Assembly: GCA_016935975.1 (NCBI GenBank)
Contig: JAFGPX010000084.1
Coordinates: 1-64,000, forward strand
Length of the DNA stretch: 64,000 nucleotides
Reading direction: 5' to 3'
DNA from: Deltaproteobacteria bacterium
GTDB taxonomy: Bacteria > Myxococcota_A > Polyangia > Fen-1088
The position numbers and the translations under genes were made by a program. Within the stretch, counting starts at the first letter, position 1. Every line of letters begins with the position of its first letter. The notes below the pieces were generated by a model. The model was given only the letters and a program-made list of their open reading frames with translations, was not told the origin of the DNA and searched no databases. Of this stretch, positions 3,577-57,915 are shown in pieces.

Positions 3577-4290
3577 ATGAAGTCGAGCTACGACGAGCTG
3601 AAGGAGACGGCGTGGCGGGCCAACATGGAGATCCCGCGCCGGGGCCTGGCCATCTACACCTTCGGGAACGTCTCGGCGTTCGATGCCCAGCGAGCCGTCT
3701 TCGCGATCAAGCCGAGCGGCGTCGCCTATGAGAGTCTCGCAGCCGCTGACATGGTCATCGTCGACCTCGACGCCAAGGTGGTAGAGGGTAGCCTGCGGCC
3801 CTCTTCCGACACGAAGACCCACGCCGCATTGTACAAAGCCTTTCAAGAGATCGGAGGGATCGTTCACACCCATTCCACCTACGCCACGGCCTGGGCGCAG
3901 GCGCGCATGCCGATCCCCATCTACGGCACGACCCATGCGGATCACCTCGCGGAGGACGTTCCTTGTACGGCGCTCATGACTGCCGATGCGGTCCGTGGAG
4001 ACTACGAAGCCGAGACGGGAACACAAATCATCGAGTGCTTCCGCGCGCGTGATCCGACCCAGACTCCGATGGTCCTGGTTGCGGGGCATGGCCCGTTTGC
4101 GTGGGGCAAGACGGCGGACAAGGCGGTGTACCATGCTGTCGTCCTCGAAGAGCTTGCCAAGATGGCGTCCATCACGCGGGGCCTCGATCCCAATGCAGGA
4201 AGGCTGCCAGAGTACCTCGTCCGCAAGCACTTCGAGCGTAAACACGGGAAAGACGCGTACTATGGACAGACGACCGATACGAAGTTCTAG
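3577..4290 (+). CDS. araD: L-ribulose-5-phosphate 4-epimerase (class II aldolase family)
   Basis: LAIYTFGNVSAFD, HTHSTYATAWAQA, GTTHADHLAEDVPCT, GHGPFAWGKTADKAVYHAVVLEE; 16 bp after araA. Confidence 0.93.
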   Translation: MKSSYDELKETAWRANMEIPRRGLAIYTFGNVSAFDAQRAVFAIKPSGVAYESLAAADMVIVDLDAKVVEGSLRPSSDTKTHAALYKAFQEIGGIVHTHSTYATAWAQARMPIPIYGTTHADHLAEDVPCTALMTADAVRGDYEAETGTQIIECFRARDPTQTPMVLVAGHGPFAWGKTADKAVYHAVVLEELAKMASITRGLDPNAGRLPEYLVRKHFERKHGKDAYYGQTTDTKF

Positions 4291-30083: not shown

Positions 30084-30578
30084 ATGAGCCTCGTGGAAAT
30101 CTGCCTCTTGGCTTCCCTCCTGGTCGTCGTCGTGGTCGTCGCAAAGATGCTGCGGGCCGTGCGTTTGCTCGACGGACGCATGACCCTGCTCCAGGAACAA
30201 CTGAAGCTCGGCCGCGTCGCCGCGCCCAAGGCACGCAATAGCCAGCCGGCTCCCACGAGATCCTCGCCCGTCAGGACGCCGGTGTTCGGAGTGCCGGTTG
30301 CGCCACCTTCCCCGCGCGCACCGACCCCGGCCCCCGAGGCCGAAAGCGCAGCCGAGGAAGGGCACCACCCGGGCGAGCAAACGGCCCATGTCATCGGTCA
30401 AGCCGAGGCGGATGCGGTGTGGGCACACATGGAGGCGGAGCAGGAGCGGCTGAAGAAGGCCATGGGCCGCGACTTCCAGGTGCGCACGCGCAAGCGCTCC
30501 GCCAGCGACATACGCGGCAAGCCCGTGGTGCGCGCCTTGTCCGCGCAGGATCTGGCCAAGAAGATCGAGCGCAAGTAG
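30084..30578 (+). CDS. Hypothetical protein with N-terminal transmembrane helix
   Basis: MSLVEICLLASLLVVVVVVAKMLRAVRLLDGRM; Pro-rich middle. Confidence 0.5.
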   Translation: MSLVEICLLASLLVVVVVVAKMLRAVRLLDGRMTLLQEQLKLGRVAAPKARNSQPAPTRSSPVRTPVFGVPVAPPSPRAPTPAPEAESAAEEGHHPGEQTAHVIGQAEADAVWAHMEAEQERLKKAMGRDFQVRTRKRSASDIRGKPVVRALSAQDLAKKIERK

Positions 30579-30598
30579 GGGCGCGATTCGTCGCGCCC
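30579..30598. terminator. Probable bidirectional terminator between convergent genes
   Basis: GGGCGCGA-TTCG-TCGCGCCC, perfect 8-bp stem with TTCG loop. Confidence 0.55.
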
Positions 30599-30622
30599 TT
30601 CGCCATTCATCGCGCGCTCTCT

Positions 30623-31726
30623 CTACCAGCGCACGACCACGCGCAGGATTGCCAACAGGAGCTTCCACACCGGCTCCACCACATGGGTGACAATCGGGCC
30701 GCGGAAACCAGGGTAGTCGATGACCGCGGCGAAGTGGCGGAGGATCTCGCGGTCGGGCACCCGGCGGATCGCGGCGACGGCGCGCCGGCCGCGCCACAGA
30801 TAGCGCCAGGCCGTCGGGCGCACGAACCACAGAAGCGAGCGCAGCTTGGCGCCCAGCCAGCCGCCGCGCGCCGCCATGAAGAGCAAACCGAGATCCGCAA
30901 GCAGGAGGGCCGGGAGCAACAGCAAGACCGTCGGCAAACGGTAGTTCTTGAGCACCACGATCCAGCGGTTGCGCTCCATCCAGTACCACTTGGACGTGGC
31001 CCGCGAGAATTCGTAGTAGTGCCGGCATACGCTGGCCGGAGCCACCACGTTGCGCAGGCCCGCCACGCGGATCCGCCAGCCCAGATCCAGATCCTCGTGG
31101 TAGAGCCAAAGGGTTTCGTCAAAGAGGCCCACCCGTTGCAGCACCGGCACCGGCAGGAGCACGCAGGCCCCGGACGAAAACGCGATGTCGCGCGGCCCCG
31201 GCGGCACGGCCGCGCGCGCCCCCAGGTAGCCGCCGACGTAGCCGAAGCCCAGGAAGTGAATGAGGTTGCCGCTGGAATTGACCTTCTCGGGCTCGCTGCC
31301 CAGCACGAGCAGCGACTGCACCGAGCCCACGTCCGCGCTGCCCTCCGCCGCGTCGACCGCCTCACGCAGAGCCGCGCGCTCGCAGGTGGCGTCCGGGTTG
31401 AGCAAGAAAACGTAGTCGACGCCGCGAGCCGTGGCTGCCCGCAAAGCGAGGTTGTTGGCAGCCGCGAAACCCAGGTTGCCGCCCGGCTCATGCACCACCA
31501 CGGACGGCAGGCGATCCCCGAGGCGTTCGATCTCCCGCCGCGCCGCCGCCAAGCTGCCGTCGCCGGCGCCGTTGTCCACGAGATGGAGTTCCAGCCGCTC
31601 ACGGGGGTACTCGACCTCCGCAATGCTGGCAAGCAGGCCGGGCACGAACCTCTCGCAGCGGTAGAGGACCGTCACCACGGCCACGCGCGGGAGCGATGCA
31701 TCCGTCTCGGTGCTCAACGCCCGCAC
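30623..31726 (-). CDS. Glycosyltransferase family 2 (rhamnosyltransferase-like)
   Basis: VAVVTVLYRCERFVPGLLASI, VVHEPGGNLGFAAANNLAL, YVFLLNPDATCE, GLFDETLWLYHEDLDLGWRI. Confidence 0.88.
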   Translation of the reverse strand: MRALSTETDASLPRVAVVTVLYRCERFVPGLLASIAEVEYPRERLELHLVDNGAGDGSLAAARREIERLGDRLPSVVVHEPGGNLGFAAANNLALRAATARGVDYVFLLNPDATCERAALREAVDAAEGSADVGSVQSLLVLGSEPEKVNSSGNLIHFLGFGYVGGYLGARAAVPPGPRDIAFSSGACVLLPVPVLQRVGLFDETLWLYHEDLDLGWRIRVAGLRNVVAPASVCRHYYEFSRATSKWYWMERNRWIVVLKNYRLPTVLLLLPALLLADLGLLFMAARGGWLGAKLRSLLWFVRPTAWRYLWRGRRAVAAIRRVPDREILRHFAAVIDYPGFRGPIVTHVVEPVWKLLLAILRVVVRW

Positions 31727-50475: not shown

Positions 50476-51462
<987 letters not shown>

Positions 51463-51469
51463 GACCGGA

Positions 51470-51635
51470 GCGCGACACGCGGATCGCACGAGCGTGGGCG
51501 AGAGCGTGCTCGTGGGGGGTACGCGAACCGCGCGAGGCGTGAGCGGCCGTACGCGGACCGTCCCACGCCTCCCGCCGCACGCATCACCCACACGGACACG
51601 CTCACGCTCGCCCACGCGCGTGCCGCGTCCCGCGC
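51470..51635. repeat. Long imperfect inverted repeat filling most of the epimerase-ABC spacer
   Basis: GCGCG-AC-ACGCGG (51470-51482)/CCGCGT-CC-CGCGC (51623-51635); GCGTGGGCGAG (51492-51502)/CTCGCCCACGC (51607-51617); GAGGCGTG (51534-51541)/CACGCCTC (51564-51571). Confidence 0.75.
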
Positions 51636-51663
51636 CCCGGCTTTCCACTGCGGCGGAGTCACC

Positions 51664-52596
51664 ATGAGCGAGATCGTCCTGCGTGCCGACGGGCTGGCCA
51701 AGACCTTTCGCCTCGGGTTCTTGCGCAAGCGCATCGAAGCGGTCCGGGAAGCAACCTTCGACGTCCAGCGCGGCGAGATCTTCGGGTACCTCGGCCCCAA
51801 CGGCTCGGGCAAAACCACCACGCTCAAGATGCTCATGGGCCTGGTCTTCCCCACCCGCGGCCGCGCCGAGGTCCTGGGCCGGCCGGTACCGAACCGCGAA
51901 GCCAAGCGCCGGCTCGGCTACCTGCCGGAGAGCCCCTATTTCTATGAATACCTCGCCCCCGAGGAATTCCTCGACCTGGTCGGCGCCCTGTGCGACGTGC
52001 CGCGGGCAATTCGGCGGGAGCGCGCGGCCAAGCTCATCGCCCGCGTCGGCCTCGAGCAGGCGCGCGGCCGGCCCCTGCGCAAGTTCTCGAAAGGCATGCT
52101 CCAACGTATCGGCATCGCGCAGGCCTTGATGGGCGATCCCGAGCTGGTCGTGCTCGACGAGCCCATGACCGGCCTCGATCCCCTGGGCCGCAAGGAGATC
52201 CGCGACCTCATGCTCGAACTTCGGCGCGAGGGCCGCACCGTGGTGTATTCCACCCATATCCTGCCCGACGTGGAGATGACCTGCGACCGCGTGGCCATGA
52301 TCTTCGCGGGACGCATCCGCAGCGTGGGCCCGCTGGCGGAGCTTCTGACCGCGCGCCTGCTCTCCACCGAGGTGTGCCTGAGCCCGGGTGCGGGGACGCT
52401 CCCGCCGCTGCCCGCGGGCGCCACCACCAGACAGAGCCCCGACGGCTTGCTCGTCGATCTGCCCGAGGGCACGGACGTGGACGCTTGCCTGCGGGCAGTG
52501 CTGGCCGGCGGCTGCCACGTCCTCTCGGTGACCCCCCGCCGGGAATCGCTCGAGGATCTCTTCCTCCGCCAGGCCGCGGAAAAGGGGGCGGCATGA
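51664..52596 (+). CDS. ABC transporter ATP-binding protein
   Basis: Walker A GPNGSGKTTTLK, signature RKFSKGMLQRIGIAQAL, Walker B LVVLDEPMTGLDPLG. Confidence 0.95.
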   Translation: MSEIVLRADGLAKTFRLGFLRKRIEAVREATFDVQRGEIFGYLGPNGSGKTTTLKMLMGLVFPTRGRAEVLGRPVPNREAKRRLGYLPESPYFYEYLAPEEFLDLVGALCDVPRAIRRERAAKLIARVGLEQARGRPLRKFSKGMLQRIGIAQALMGDPELVVLDEPMTGLDPLGRKEIRDLMLELRREGRTVVYSTHILPDVEMTCDRVAMIFAGRIRSVGPLAELLTARLLSTEVCLSPGAGTLPPLPAGATTRQSPDGLLVDLPEGTDVDACLRAVLAGGCHVLSVTPRRESLEDLFLRQAAEKGAA

Positions 52597-54066: not shown

Positions 54067-55284
54067 ATGCTAGAAACTGGGTTCCGGCTCAAGCTTATGG
54101 GTATCCGTTGCGATCGTTGTCAAACCGAATGCAAAGTGGACGACTCCTCTGCAGGCCAGTCCAGCAGGGAGATCCAGTGTAGCGCCTGCGGCCACGTGAT
54201 GATAATCGGCCCCAAGACGCCAGCTCCGCTTCCATCGAGCCCCGGGCCCGGCACACCGAAGCCCGAAGCCAACGAGTGGGTGGTCGAAACCGTCCACGGC
54301 CGTCGTCTGCAAACAGGTGAGATCGCGGCCCTGCACAGATGGATCATCGAGCGCCGGGTCACGCGCGACGACCGGATCTCCTGCAATGGCCAGCCGTTCC
54401 AGCCCATGGCCGAGGTGGCCGAGCTCCTGCCCTTCTTCGACATCACCGACAGCGCAGAACGCGCCCGCCGGGCCGATACGCCCAGCCCCAAGGTCTTGCC
54501 CGCTCCGCCACCCGCGACCGCGCAGCCGCCCACGACAGGCGAAACGACGGCAGGGGGCCCAACGCCGGCGCGTGCCGATGTGCTTCCGGCCGACGACGAC
54601 CGCACCGAAACCAAGGTCGTTCCCTCCCCGACCTTGCGGCTGGCCCTTCCCTTCAAGCTCGCACTCATGACGTTGACCGCTGCGGCGGTCGCCTACGCCG
54701 GTATCGCCCTTTACAATCTGCGTTGGCGCCGGCCGGCCCAAGCGCCATTCCAGACCCGTTCCGTCACGAGCGAGCGCATCGTGGCTCCGGCCCCGGCCCC
54801 GGCCCCCGCCGCGCCGGAGGTCGTGACCATACCCGCAAGCCCGGATCCGCAGGAGCCCGCAATCGAGCCGAGCGCAGAAGAGGAGGACGAAAGCGCAGCC
54901 GAGCCCACGCCACGCCGCAAGGCGCGAGCCGCTGGCCGCTCTGCTGGCGCCCGGGGGAGCAGGTCTCGGGCAGCCGCGGTGGCTCGCCGCTCTGCCGCCG
55001 GCAACGACAAGGCTGGCCCTGCCTCCCCGCAGGCGATGGCCGCCCAAGGCTACGCGGCGCTAAACCGCCGGCAGTTCCCGCAAGCCATCCGGCTCTTCAA
55101 GCAAGCCTTGGCCGGCAACCCGGCCAACGGCACCGCGCAGTTCGGCCTTGCCGAAGCCTACCGCGAGACCGGCCAGAGGACGTCGGCGCTCAAGGCGTAC
55201 CGCCGTTACATCCAAATCTTGCCGAGCGGCCCCGACGCCGGCTCCGCTAGGCTGCAAATCCGTTTGTTGGAGAGGAAGCAGTAG
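54067..55284 (+). CDS. Zinc-ribbon (MJ0042/FrzS-linked type) protein with GYF-2-like domain, TM and TPR-like C-terminus
   Basis: IRCDRCQTECKVDDSSAGQSSREIQCSACGHVMII; EWVVETVHGRRLQTGEIAALHRWIIERRVTRDDRISCNGQPFQPMAEV; C-terminal QGYAALNRRQFPQAIRLFKQAL. Confidence 0.7.
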   Translation: MLETGFRLKLMGIRCDRCQTECKVDDSSAGQSSREIQCSACGHVMIIGPKTPAPLPSSPGPGTPKPEANEWVVETVHGRRLQTGEIAALHRWIIERRVTRDDRISCNGQPFQPMAEVAELLPFFDITDSAERARRADTPSPKVLPAPPPATAQPPTTGETTAGGPTPARADVLPADDDRTETKVVPSPTLRLALPFKLALMTLTAAAVAYAGIALYNLRWRRPAQAPFQTRSVTSERIVAPAPAPAPAAPEVVTIPASPDPQEPAIEPSAEEEDESAAEPTPRRKARAAGRSAGARGSRSRAAAVARRSAAGNDKAGPASPQAMAAQGYAALNRRQFPQAIRLFKQALAGNPANGTAQFGLAEAYRETGQRTSALKAYRRYIQILPSGPDAGSARLQIRLLERKQ

Positions 55285-55332
55285 CGAATCCGCGGCGTCC
55301 GGCTCGTGTAGGCGCGATGAATCGCGGCCCTA

Positions 55333-57915
55333 CTACCGCAGGCACACGGCCAGGATCTGCTTGAGATCGGTCTGGCCGGCGATGGCCTTGTCGATGCCGT
55401 CTTGAAGCAAGGTGGTCATGCCCCCCGCCACGGCCAGCCTGCGGATTTCCTCGACGGGTGCCTTGGCCACGATGGCGCGCTTGATGGCGTCATCGGCCAC
55501 GAGCAGCTCGTGCACGGCAAGGCGGCCCTTGAGGCCGGTCTTGGCGCACTGGTCGCAACCCGCTCCGCGCCACAACTTGAAATCGGGTTTTCCGACCCCG
55601 CGGGCCGCGGCCCCTTCCTCACCGAAGGCTTGCACGATTTCCTCGATCTCGTCGGTAGCGGGCTTGTACTGTTCGCGGCATTTCTTGCACAGCCCGCGCG
55701 CCAGACGCTGCGCCAGCACGCCGAGCAAGGCGTCGGCGAAACTGAAGGGATCGAGGCCCATGTCCACGAGACGGGTGATGGTTTCGGGAGCGCTGTTGGT
55801 GTGCAGGGTGGAGAACACCAAGTGGCCGGTGAGCGACGCCTCGACGCCCGTGTTGGCGGTTTCCTTGTCGCGCATCTCGCCGACCATGATGACATCGGGA
55901 TCGGCGCGCAAGAACGAGCGCATGGCCGCGGCGAAGTCCAGGCCTATCCTGGGTTGCACCTGCACCTGCCGCAATCCCGGCTGGGTGATCTCGACGGGAT
56001 CCTCGGCCGTCCAGATCTTCATGTCCGACGTGTTGATGGTCCCCAAGGCCGAGTGCAAAGTCGTGGTCTTGCCCGACCCGGTTGGCCCCACGCACAGGAT
56101 GAGGCCGTACGGCTTGGTGATGAGGTTCCTCATCTCGCGCAGGTTGCGCTCGCTCATGCCCATCTCGTCGAGGGGAATCGGCTTCGAGGCGGCCAAGATA
56201 CGCATGACCATGTCCTCGTTGCCATTCACGGTCGGCATCGTGGCGACACGCAACTCGATGGTACGGTCGCGCATGCGGAACCTGATCTTGCCGTCCTGGG
56301 GCTTGCGCCTCTCCGAGATGTCGAGCCGAGCCATGATCTTGAAGCGCGCCACGAGCGGGTTGCGGAAGATGGCCGGAATCTCCTGATAGTTCACGCAATC
56401 GCCGTCGATGCGGAAGCGGATGCGCGTGTTCTCCTCCTTGCCGTAGGGCTCGATGTGGATGTCGGAGGCGCCGCGCTGAAAGGCGTCGATGATGACCTGG
56501 TTGGCCAGCTTGATGATGGTGCTGTCGGATTCCTCGCCGTCCTGAGTGTCGTCGGCGACATCCTCGACCGCTCCCGTGGTTTCGTCGGTGGACAGCTCGC
56601 GAATCAGGGAATTGACGTCGGGCCGCATGCCGTACGACGTCTCGATGCAAGCCATGATCTCGTCGCGGAAACCGACGTGCAGGGCGATCTCGCGATCGGT
56701 CTCGACCGAGCGCAGGGAATCGGTGCGCGCGATGTCGTGCGGGTTGTCGATGACCACGACGAGCCGCGGGCCGCGGCGCTCGATCGGCACCGCACAGATC
56801 TTGCGCAAGAACTCCACGCGCAGGCGCTGACGGAGATCCTCCGGGATGGTCTGCGACCCGGTGAAGCGATAGAACGGCACGCCGTAGTACTGCGAGATCG
56901 ATTTCTCCACGTCGGCGCGCGCGATGCCGACCTTCTCGATGAGATAGCGGCCGACGTCGGACCCAGCAGCCTCCGCCGCGCTCGCCGCCTTGGCCAGAGC
57001 CTCGGCCTGCATGATGCCGGCCTCGACCAGGTAGTCCCACTTGCCGGCGGGCTTTGCCGACGGGCGTTCCTTGCCGCCGTCGCGGGCGGGACTTCTGCCG
57101 GCGCCGGGCCGGCCGGCCGCGGACACGGAGGAGGCGGCGGTCTGGGACGGGGGCGTCACGACGGTCTTGCCGCTCGCCGGGGCTCTGGCTGCCGGCGGCG
57201 CGGGCGTGACCTTCGCGGCCGCGGGCGTGGGCGTGGATTTGGCCGCCGGAGGCGTGGGCGTGGCTCTCGTGGCCGGCGGAGTAGGTGTGGACTTGGTCGC
57301 CGGGGGCGTGGGCGTGGACTTCGTAACCATCGGCGAGGGCGTGGCCGACGAGCGATGACCGAGGTTCAGGGCCAAGGCCGAAGCCACCGCCTCGGCCACC
57401 TCGCCCGCGTCGACCAGATCGCGGGAAGAGAAGCTCCCGGTCTCGTCCGCGCGGTTGGCGACAAGCAGCACCCCCAGAAGCTGCGTGTCGTCGCGCAGGG
57501 GTGCCAGCATCACCCCGCGCAGACGCACGTCCAGCCACTTGTCCAGACGCTCGTCGGGGCGCAAGCGCGAGTGCAGGCGCACCAACTCGCCCAGATCCCA
57601 GACGTTGCGAATGCTGGCGGGTGCCGGCGTGGTCGCGGCCCAGCCCACGAGGTTGTCCGGCTCGCTCGGCAGGCGCAGCTCGCGCATGGAATCGACGACC
57701 CAGGCCACGGCGTGCAGCTGGTTCTTCCGGTCCGGAACGAAGATCGCAGCCCGCTCGGCGCCGAAAAACCCCGCGACACGCTCCATGCCATCGAACAGCA
57801 GGCTGTCGAGCGAAGGCAGGCCCGCGAGGTAGGTGCAGAGCTCGGTCAGTTGCGCGCGCTTGTCTTGCTGGGCGGATTCGCCAGCCATCTGGCGCAGCCA
57901 AGTCGCAGCATCCAT
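55333..57915 (-). CDS. GspE/PilB-family ATPase with N-terminal GAF-like domain
   Basis: Walker A LCVGPTGSGKTTTLHSAL, Asp/His-box regions, VGEMRDKETANTGVEASLTGHLVFSTLHTN, CKKCREQY zinc site; GAF-like GFFGAERAAIFVPDRKNQLHAVAW. Confidence 0.9.
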   Translation of the reverse strand: MDAATWLRQMAGESAQQDKRAQLTELCTYLAGLPSLDSLLFDGMERVAGFFGAERAAIFVPDRKNQLHAVAWVVDSMRELRLPSEPDNLVGWAATTPAPASIRNVWDLGELVRLHSRLRPDERLDKWLDVRLRGVMLAPLRDDTQLLGVLLVANRADETGSFSSRDLVDAGEVAEAVASALALNLGHRSSATPSPMVTKSTPTPPATKSTPTPPATRATPTPPAAKSTPTPAAAKVTPAPPAARAPASGKTVVTPPSQTAASSVSAAGRPGAGRSPARDGGKERPSAKPAGKWDYLVEAGIMQAEALAKAASAAEAAGSDVGRYLIEKVGIARADVEKSISQYYGVPFYRFTGSQTIPEDLRQRLRVEFLRKICAVPIERRGPRLVVVIDNPHDIARTDSLRSVETDREIALHVGFRDEIMACIETSYGMRPDVNSLIRELSTDETTGAVEDVADDTQDGEESDSTIIKLANQVIIDAFQRGASDIHIEPYGKEENTRIRFRIDGDCVNYQEIPAIFRNPLVARFKIMARLDISERRKPQDGKIRFRMRDRTIELRVATMPTVNGNEDMVMRILAASKPIPLDEMGMSERNLREMRNLITKPYGLILCVGPTGSGKTTTLHSALGTINTSDMKIWTAEDPVEITQPGLRQVQVQPRIGLDFAAAMRSFLRADPDVIMVGEMRDKETANTGVEASLTGHLVFSTLHTNSAPETITRLVDMGLDPFSFADALLGVLAQRLARGLCKKCREQYKPATDEIEEIVQAFGEEGAAARGVGKPDFKLWRGAGCDQCAKTGLKGRLAVHELLVADDAIKRAIVAKAPVEEIRRLAVAGGMTTLLQDGIDKAIAGQTDLKQILAVCLR
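57187..57321 (-). repeat. Five imperfect 27-bp units encoding KSTPTPPAT-type linker in PilB-like ATPase
   Basis: KSTPTPPAT KSTPTPPAT RATPTPPAA KSTPTPAAA KVTPAPPAA. Confidence 0.75.

Follow-up and report, generated by a model that had tools for sequence, protein, structure and literature searches.

A dispersed palindromic repeat, probably MITE/REP-like, at an operon junction in an uncultured Myxococcota lineage

The spacer between an NAD-dependent epimerase gene and an ABC transporter ATPase gene, within the 64-kb stretch of DNA analysed here (the window), folds back on itself along most of its length, which raises the question of what so large a hairpin is doing inside an operon. The preliminary description of the locus offered three candidates: a mobile palindromic element of MITE/REP type, a transcript-processing or attenuation structure, and a recombination site. 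We consider it very likely that the hairpin is one copy of a non-coding, MITE/REP-like mobile palindromic repeat inserted between operon genes in this lineage, and the best reading of that repeat is a previously unlisted family of a known bacterial kind, resident in an uncultured Myxococcota family. The operon junction is seen both with and without the insertion, and on this reading an eye-catching intergenic hairpin is explained without a dedicated regulatory RNA.

Fold and extent of the hairpin

In the predicted fold of positions 51456-51663, base 51470 pairs with 51635 through to 51508 with 51597 (32 pairs), enclosing an inner stem of 8 bp (51534-51541/51564-51571), so that the arms (51470-51508 and 51597-51635) and inner stem (51534-51571) of the preliminary description are exact to the base. 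The spacer (51463-51663) is 201 bp long, 75.6% GC and free of any T run, and both the length and the missing T tract agree with what had been described. The minimum free energy of 51460-51645 is -118.7 kcal/mol, compared with a mean of -89.1 (sd 4.77) for dinucleotide shuffles (z -6.2), and 0 of 200 shuffles matched it; the folding comparison against shuffled controls proposed earlier thus favours the structure. In an inverted-repeat ranking of the window with a gap limit of 200 nt, the hairpin came top. Several other GC-rich stretches of the window have an energy per base similar to that of the hairpin, so the shuffle test and the repeat search, and not the raw energy, carry the point. Despite mechanical open reading frames that span it on both strands, the spacer is non-coding, as first supposed, because relatives lack this DNA altogether.

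The element extends slightly past the limits originally given, from TAGCTAG at 51456-51462 to about 51651 (Table 1). The epimerase gene ends GAT AGC TAG, its TAG stop lying within the terminal TAGCTAG. In the window copy the left end lacks the subterminal part of 20-40 nt (TGTCGGGAAATT..), and the right end has it in degenerate form.

Table 1. Features of the epimerase/ABC-ATPase junction (window positions)
Feature	Positions	Strand	Basis
NAD-dependent epimerase gene, upstream	50476..51462	+	ORF; orthologues in ten relatives, 83-91% identical and paired with the same ABC gene
TAGCTAG, left terminal sequence of the element	51456..51462	+	fits terminal consensus TAGCTA(G/C) of 47 ends
Whole palindromic element, window copy	51456..51651	.	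fold and copies; right boundary uncertain by about 10 bp
Left arm	51463..51534	+	family arm model R1, 48.8 bits, E 3.6e-12
Inner stem-loop: 8-bp stem 51534-51541/51564-51571 plus apical pairs	51534..51571	.	fold
Right arm	51572..51641	-	model R1 on the other strand, 45.8 bits, E 3.2e-11
ABC transporter ATPase gene, downstream	51664..52596	+	ORF; in relatives overlaps or nearly abuts the epimerase gene

Dispersed copies and sites without the element

The window's own assembly (G000) is a Myxococcota MAG of 5.39 Mb in 341 contigs, 94% complete. Searched with the spacer, it returned that sequence in both direct and reverse-complement match and, from other contigs, diverged relatives (best E 1e-8; 67-80% identity for most). 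A model of the arm (R1; sequence only, 73 positions), built from 12 arms, located about 40 distinct dispersed elements in G000 once neighbouring matches were merged; the sequences used to build it, one window arm among them, match by construction. The search for further host copies suggested in the preliminary description was therefore productive, and the target-site duplications that were to be sought with them did not clearly appear: ends of this form would suit a TA or TAG duplication, but the junctions have diverged and the stops fall on the ends themselves. Mean arm identity is 80% within G000 and 84% within G022, where it reaches 97%. Arm matches number 41 in G000, 1 in G001 and 0 in G002, the latter two being sister species of the same genus; genus g6 of the same family carries the element in 7/7 genomes searched (6-76 arm matches each), and five other genera of the family gave no arm matches at E<=1e-5. 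Relatives that carry a name are MAGs called 'Myxococcales bacterium', many with the label fen; a plasmid collection gave no match. These copy numbers are minima, as the element runs off the end of several contigs in G020, G022 and G000.

Contigs end, or become runs of N, within copies at the G020/G022 ends L267, L269-L273 and L281 and in G000 contigs C71 and C242; from this coincidence of copies with contig ends, the element probably fragments the assemblies of these MAGs. One 4.3-kb contig of G000 (C328, L009) holds three copies (703-922, 1380-1564, 4151-4221), a clustering tighter than expected from 40 copies in 5.4 Mb.

Read outward from the arms, 47 ends share TAGCTA(G/C)(A/G)GC(C/T)TGTCGGGAAATT. 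Conservation begins abruptly at the T of TAG, the preceding base being variable, and complete copies carry the same consensus, inverted, at their other end, that is, as terminal inverted repeats. Scanning a genome with the end pattern gave as many as 28 ends on a strand, and the reversed pattern gave 0-1. The full element measures about 120-330 bp, and its body is almost wholly a long imperfect inverted repeat, bounded by the non-repetitive terminal sequence. Other repeats occur with some copies: in G022 a second repeat (CCCCTGGGGGGCTTCGGGACGGACAGCCCACCC...CGCGCTTCGCGCTCGCCCGTCGCG) is nested mid-copy in L243, L246, L254, L255, L257, L259 and L260, the internal repeat of several G022 copies reading CACCCCTGGGGGGCTTCGGGACGG..., and a separate 39-bp inverted repeat (92%; TTGCACTTCAAGTACAAGGGCTTTGTACTTGAAGTGCAA) adjoins or lies inside a copy at about 2189-2227 of L172 (G011:C60).

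The same gene pair is kept in ten relatives (L029-L037, L054), their epimerases 83-91% identical, and the element is present at 0/10 of these junctions. In nine the ABC-ATPase gene either starts in overlap with the epimerase stop or begins within about 60 bp after it, and in L030 a spacer of about 105 bp contains an unrelated palindrome (AGGGTTTGGGAACCCTCTCAGGGTTCCC). The epimerases of L029 and L030 likewise end in TAG, so the TAG of the window epimerase may have been donated by the element or may have pre-existed. Among other element-free sister sites, the tail-to-tail stops abut at C319b (TAA-TTA) and C285R (TAG-CTA) and are separated by 3 bp at C158a (TAG CAC CTA). At orthologous gene ends in G001 and G002, TAG is common to G000 and a sister at C22, C71, C86, C150 and C285R; at C319b, C84 and on one side of C141, a sister has TAA or TGA where the element is bordered by TAG; and at C174, C84, C158a and on the opposite side of C141, the gene is one to about twelve codons shorter. 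The sisters' counterparts of the C22 site are occupied by other GC-rich palindromes. Gene-end slots of sister species (L030; L228, G001:C49; L232, G001:C783) contain a different repeat (AGGGTTTGGCGAGGCCGAGCGCAGCGAGG...; AGGGTTCCCAT), which occurs once at the epimerase-ABC junction and once where G000 has copy C22.

The dispersed copies, shared ends, self-complementary body, position at gene 3' ends and element-free orthologous sites make this a family of repeats. Its dispersal in the host, its patchiness among relatives and the element-free sites here and elsewhere uphold the mobile palindromic element among the three original candidates. As a counterpoint, mean arm identity of 80% marks the copies as old and much diverged, so that movement in the present day is at most a possibility; the window copy no longer has much of its subterminal sequence, and no autonomous partner was found among RAYT and IS630-type genes.

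Gene ends, mobilisation and competing explanations

Where both neighbours were called, elements lie in 11 convergent, 12 co-oriented and 1 divergent gene pairs, compared with 6, 8 and 9 for background spacers; divergent spacers are depleted among elements (p 0.004), and the excess of convergent pairs is not significant on its own (p 0.23). Copies for which a single neighbour was called adjoin a 3' end in 31 cases and a 5' end in 6. The gene calls behind these counts are approximate, and loci C106, C7, C256, C148, C199 and C92 were excluded from later counts. At about 29 ends an ORF of 100 codons or more stops in frame on the terminal TAG, and at about 5 ends the in-frame stop is the second TAG of TAGCTAG. 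Such stops are weak evidence in themselves, since TAG is the commonest stop in G000: genes of at least 150 codons in the window and fetched loci end in 65 TAG, 27 TGA and 1 TAA (n=93). TAG-dominant stop usage is unusual in a GC-rich genome. Coding sequence here contains little TA (10.6 per kb), which could, given a TA target, help direct insertions to stop codons. Two convergent spacers of the window (30578-30623 and 55284-55333) contain short GTAG-tagged hairpins (GTAGGGGCGCGATTCGTCGCGCCC; GTAGGCGCGATGAATCGCGGCCCTAC) that begin at a gene's TAG stop, the first having 33 genome matches; they look like a second, REP-like family, though G000 has no Y1_Tnp match.

A search for the mobilising enzyme covered two transposase types. 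RAYT (Y1_Tnp, PF01797) has no match in G000 (94% complete) or G007 and one weak match in G011, and was rejected as mobiliser on its absence from the host. Of the IS630-type domain DDE_3, G000 has a fragment and the copy-rich G011, G020, G022 and G023 have none; an IS630-type transposase was rejected as parent because its occurrence does not follow copy number and the element's ends are absent from its loci. The copies may have been mobilised in trans, by a transposase whose recognition target would be either the terminal inverted repeats or the folded strand. They would survive at stop codons because insertion there keeps the gene and spares promoters, and TAGCTAG could supply an in-frame TAG in two of three frames. 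At the epimerase junction, judging from position, the element would separate the ABC-ATPase start from the epimerase stop and add a strong hairpin to the operon transcript. We regard as conceivable, though rather unlikely, a fold-back element that targets stop codons, especially abutting tail-to-tail ones (TAG-CTA, TAA-TTA), with ends that would give both genes a TAG and an enzyme that would be novel.

Exceptional folding and a preference for 3' ends and convergent spacers would also suit a functional RNA (a terminator, an attenuator or a hairpin that stabilises mRNA), under selection where it stands at gene ends and, here, tuning ABC-ATPase expression relative to the epimerase; the other palindromes in the same slots of other species (L030, G001, G002) fit this explanation as well. 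Selection on the fold should, however, be visible in the arms, and a copy's own arms pair no better than swapped ones, at -82.2 against an expected -82.6 kcal/mol in G000 (p 0.64, 29 copies) and -84.9 against -84.5 in g6 (p 0.31, 37 copies), so complementarity appears to have been inherited and not actively preserved. In the window copy, as in few others, own pairing is the better (residual -8.2, sd 4.9), but a single case of that size in 29 is not evidence of selection. An apparently highly significant signal obtained with arms trimmed to their own best alignment was discarded as trimming-biased, the unbiased version being negative. The absent T tract, the lack of any Rfam match in the 64-kb window and the junction empty of the element in 10/10 relatives likewise speak against a functional RNA, and a terminator would not need dispersed shared sequence; we think it improbable. 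Of the transcript-processing or attenuation role first proposed, what survives is a possible side effect, with no sign of pairing maintained after insertion.

The proposal of a site for recombination or integration, such as an attC-like or resolvase site, gained no positive evidence. An imperfect palindrome beside a stop codon, with copies at gene 3' ends, is what would recommend it, but the copies are single and scattered over many contigs, not arrayed as cassettes, and no sequence examined suggests cassette structure, which leaves it very little credence. Equally slight is the prospect that a GC-rich, low-complexity spacer folds by accident. The hexamer-like vocabulary (GCGTGAGCG) and the comparable energies per base elsewhere in the window lend themselves to such an account, which must nevertheless contend with the shuffle control, with a non-repetitive terminal sequence and with an arm model specific enough to reach E values of 1e-17 in some genera and match nothing in others of the family; the existence of copies refutes it.

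Relation to known repeats

Of the papers searched, a single one mentions both Myxococcota and MITEs, and it concerns a bioreactor community. The inserted repeat resembles intrinsic terminators as a GC-rich hairpin at gene 3' ends, and differs from them in its fold-back of about 180 bp, its want of a U tract, its dispersed homologous copies and, here, its place inside an operon.

GTAG REPs are found mostly 3' of genes, in spacers of co-oriented or convergent ORFs, and their termini often supply flanking ORFs with a TAG stop (PMC3733652). The new element shares with GTAG REPs, BIMEs and REPINs its palindromic form, its position 3' of genes and a terminal TAG that is often the neighbour's stop. 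It differs in length (about 120-330 bp, against units of 20-40 bp), in a host (G000) without a RAYT gene and in a base before TAG that is not fixed as G; REPIN membership was rejected on RAYT and unit size.

Bacterial MITEs such as RUP, Correia/NEMIS, ERIC, YPAL/RU-2 and Nezha form a 70-300 bp class of non-coding sequences with terminal inverted repeats, dispersed beside genes and giving a strong hairpin once transcribed (PMC3733652, PMC2229807). The new element is like them in size class, non-coding nature, terminal inverted repeats, dispersal, gene-adjacent position and strong hairpin, and unlike them in being nearly all imperfect inverted repeat, with no cognate IS or clear target duplication found. 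To our knowledge, its ends (TAGCTA..TGTCGGGAAATT) are unlike those of known MITEs. Its short, non-coding, dispersed copies with terminal inverted repeats, and the element-free sites in relatives, are what is expected of a MITE, and it is because size class, terminal inverted repeats, non-coding nature, dispersal and location all fit bacterial MITEs that we read the repeat as a new family of this known kind.
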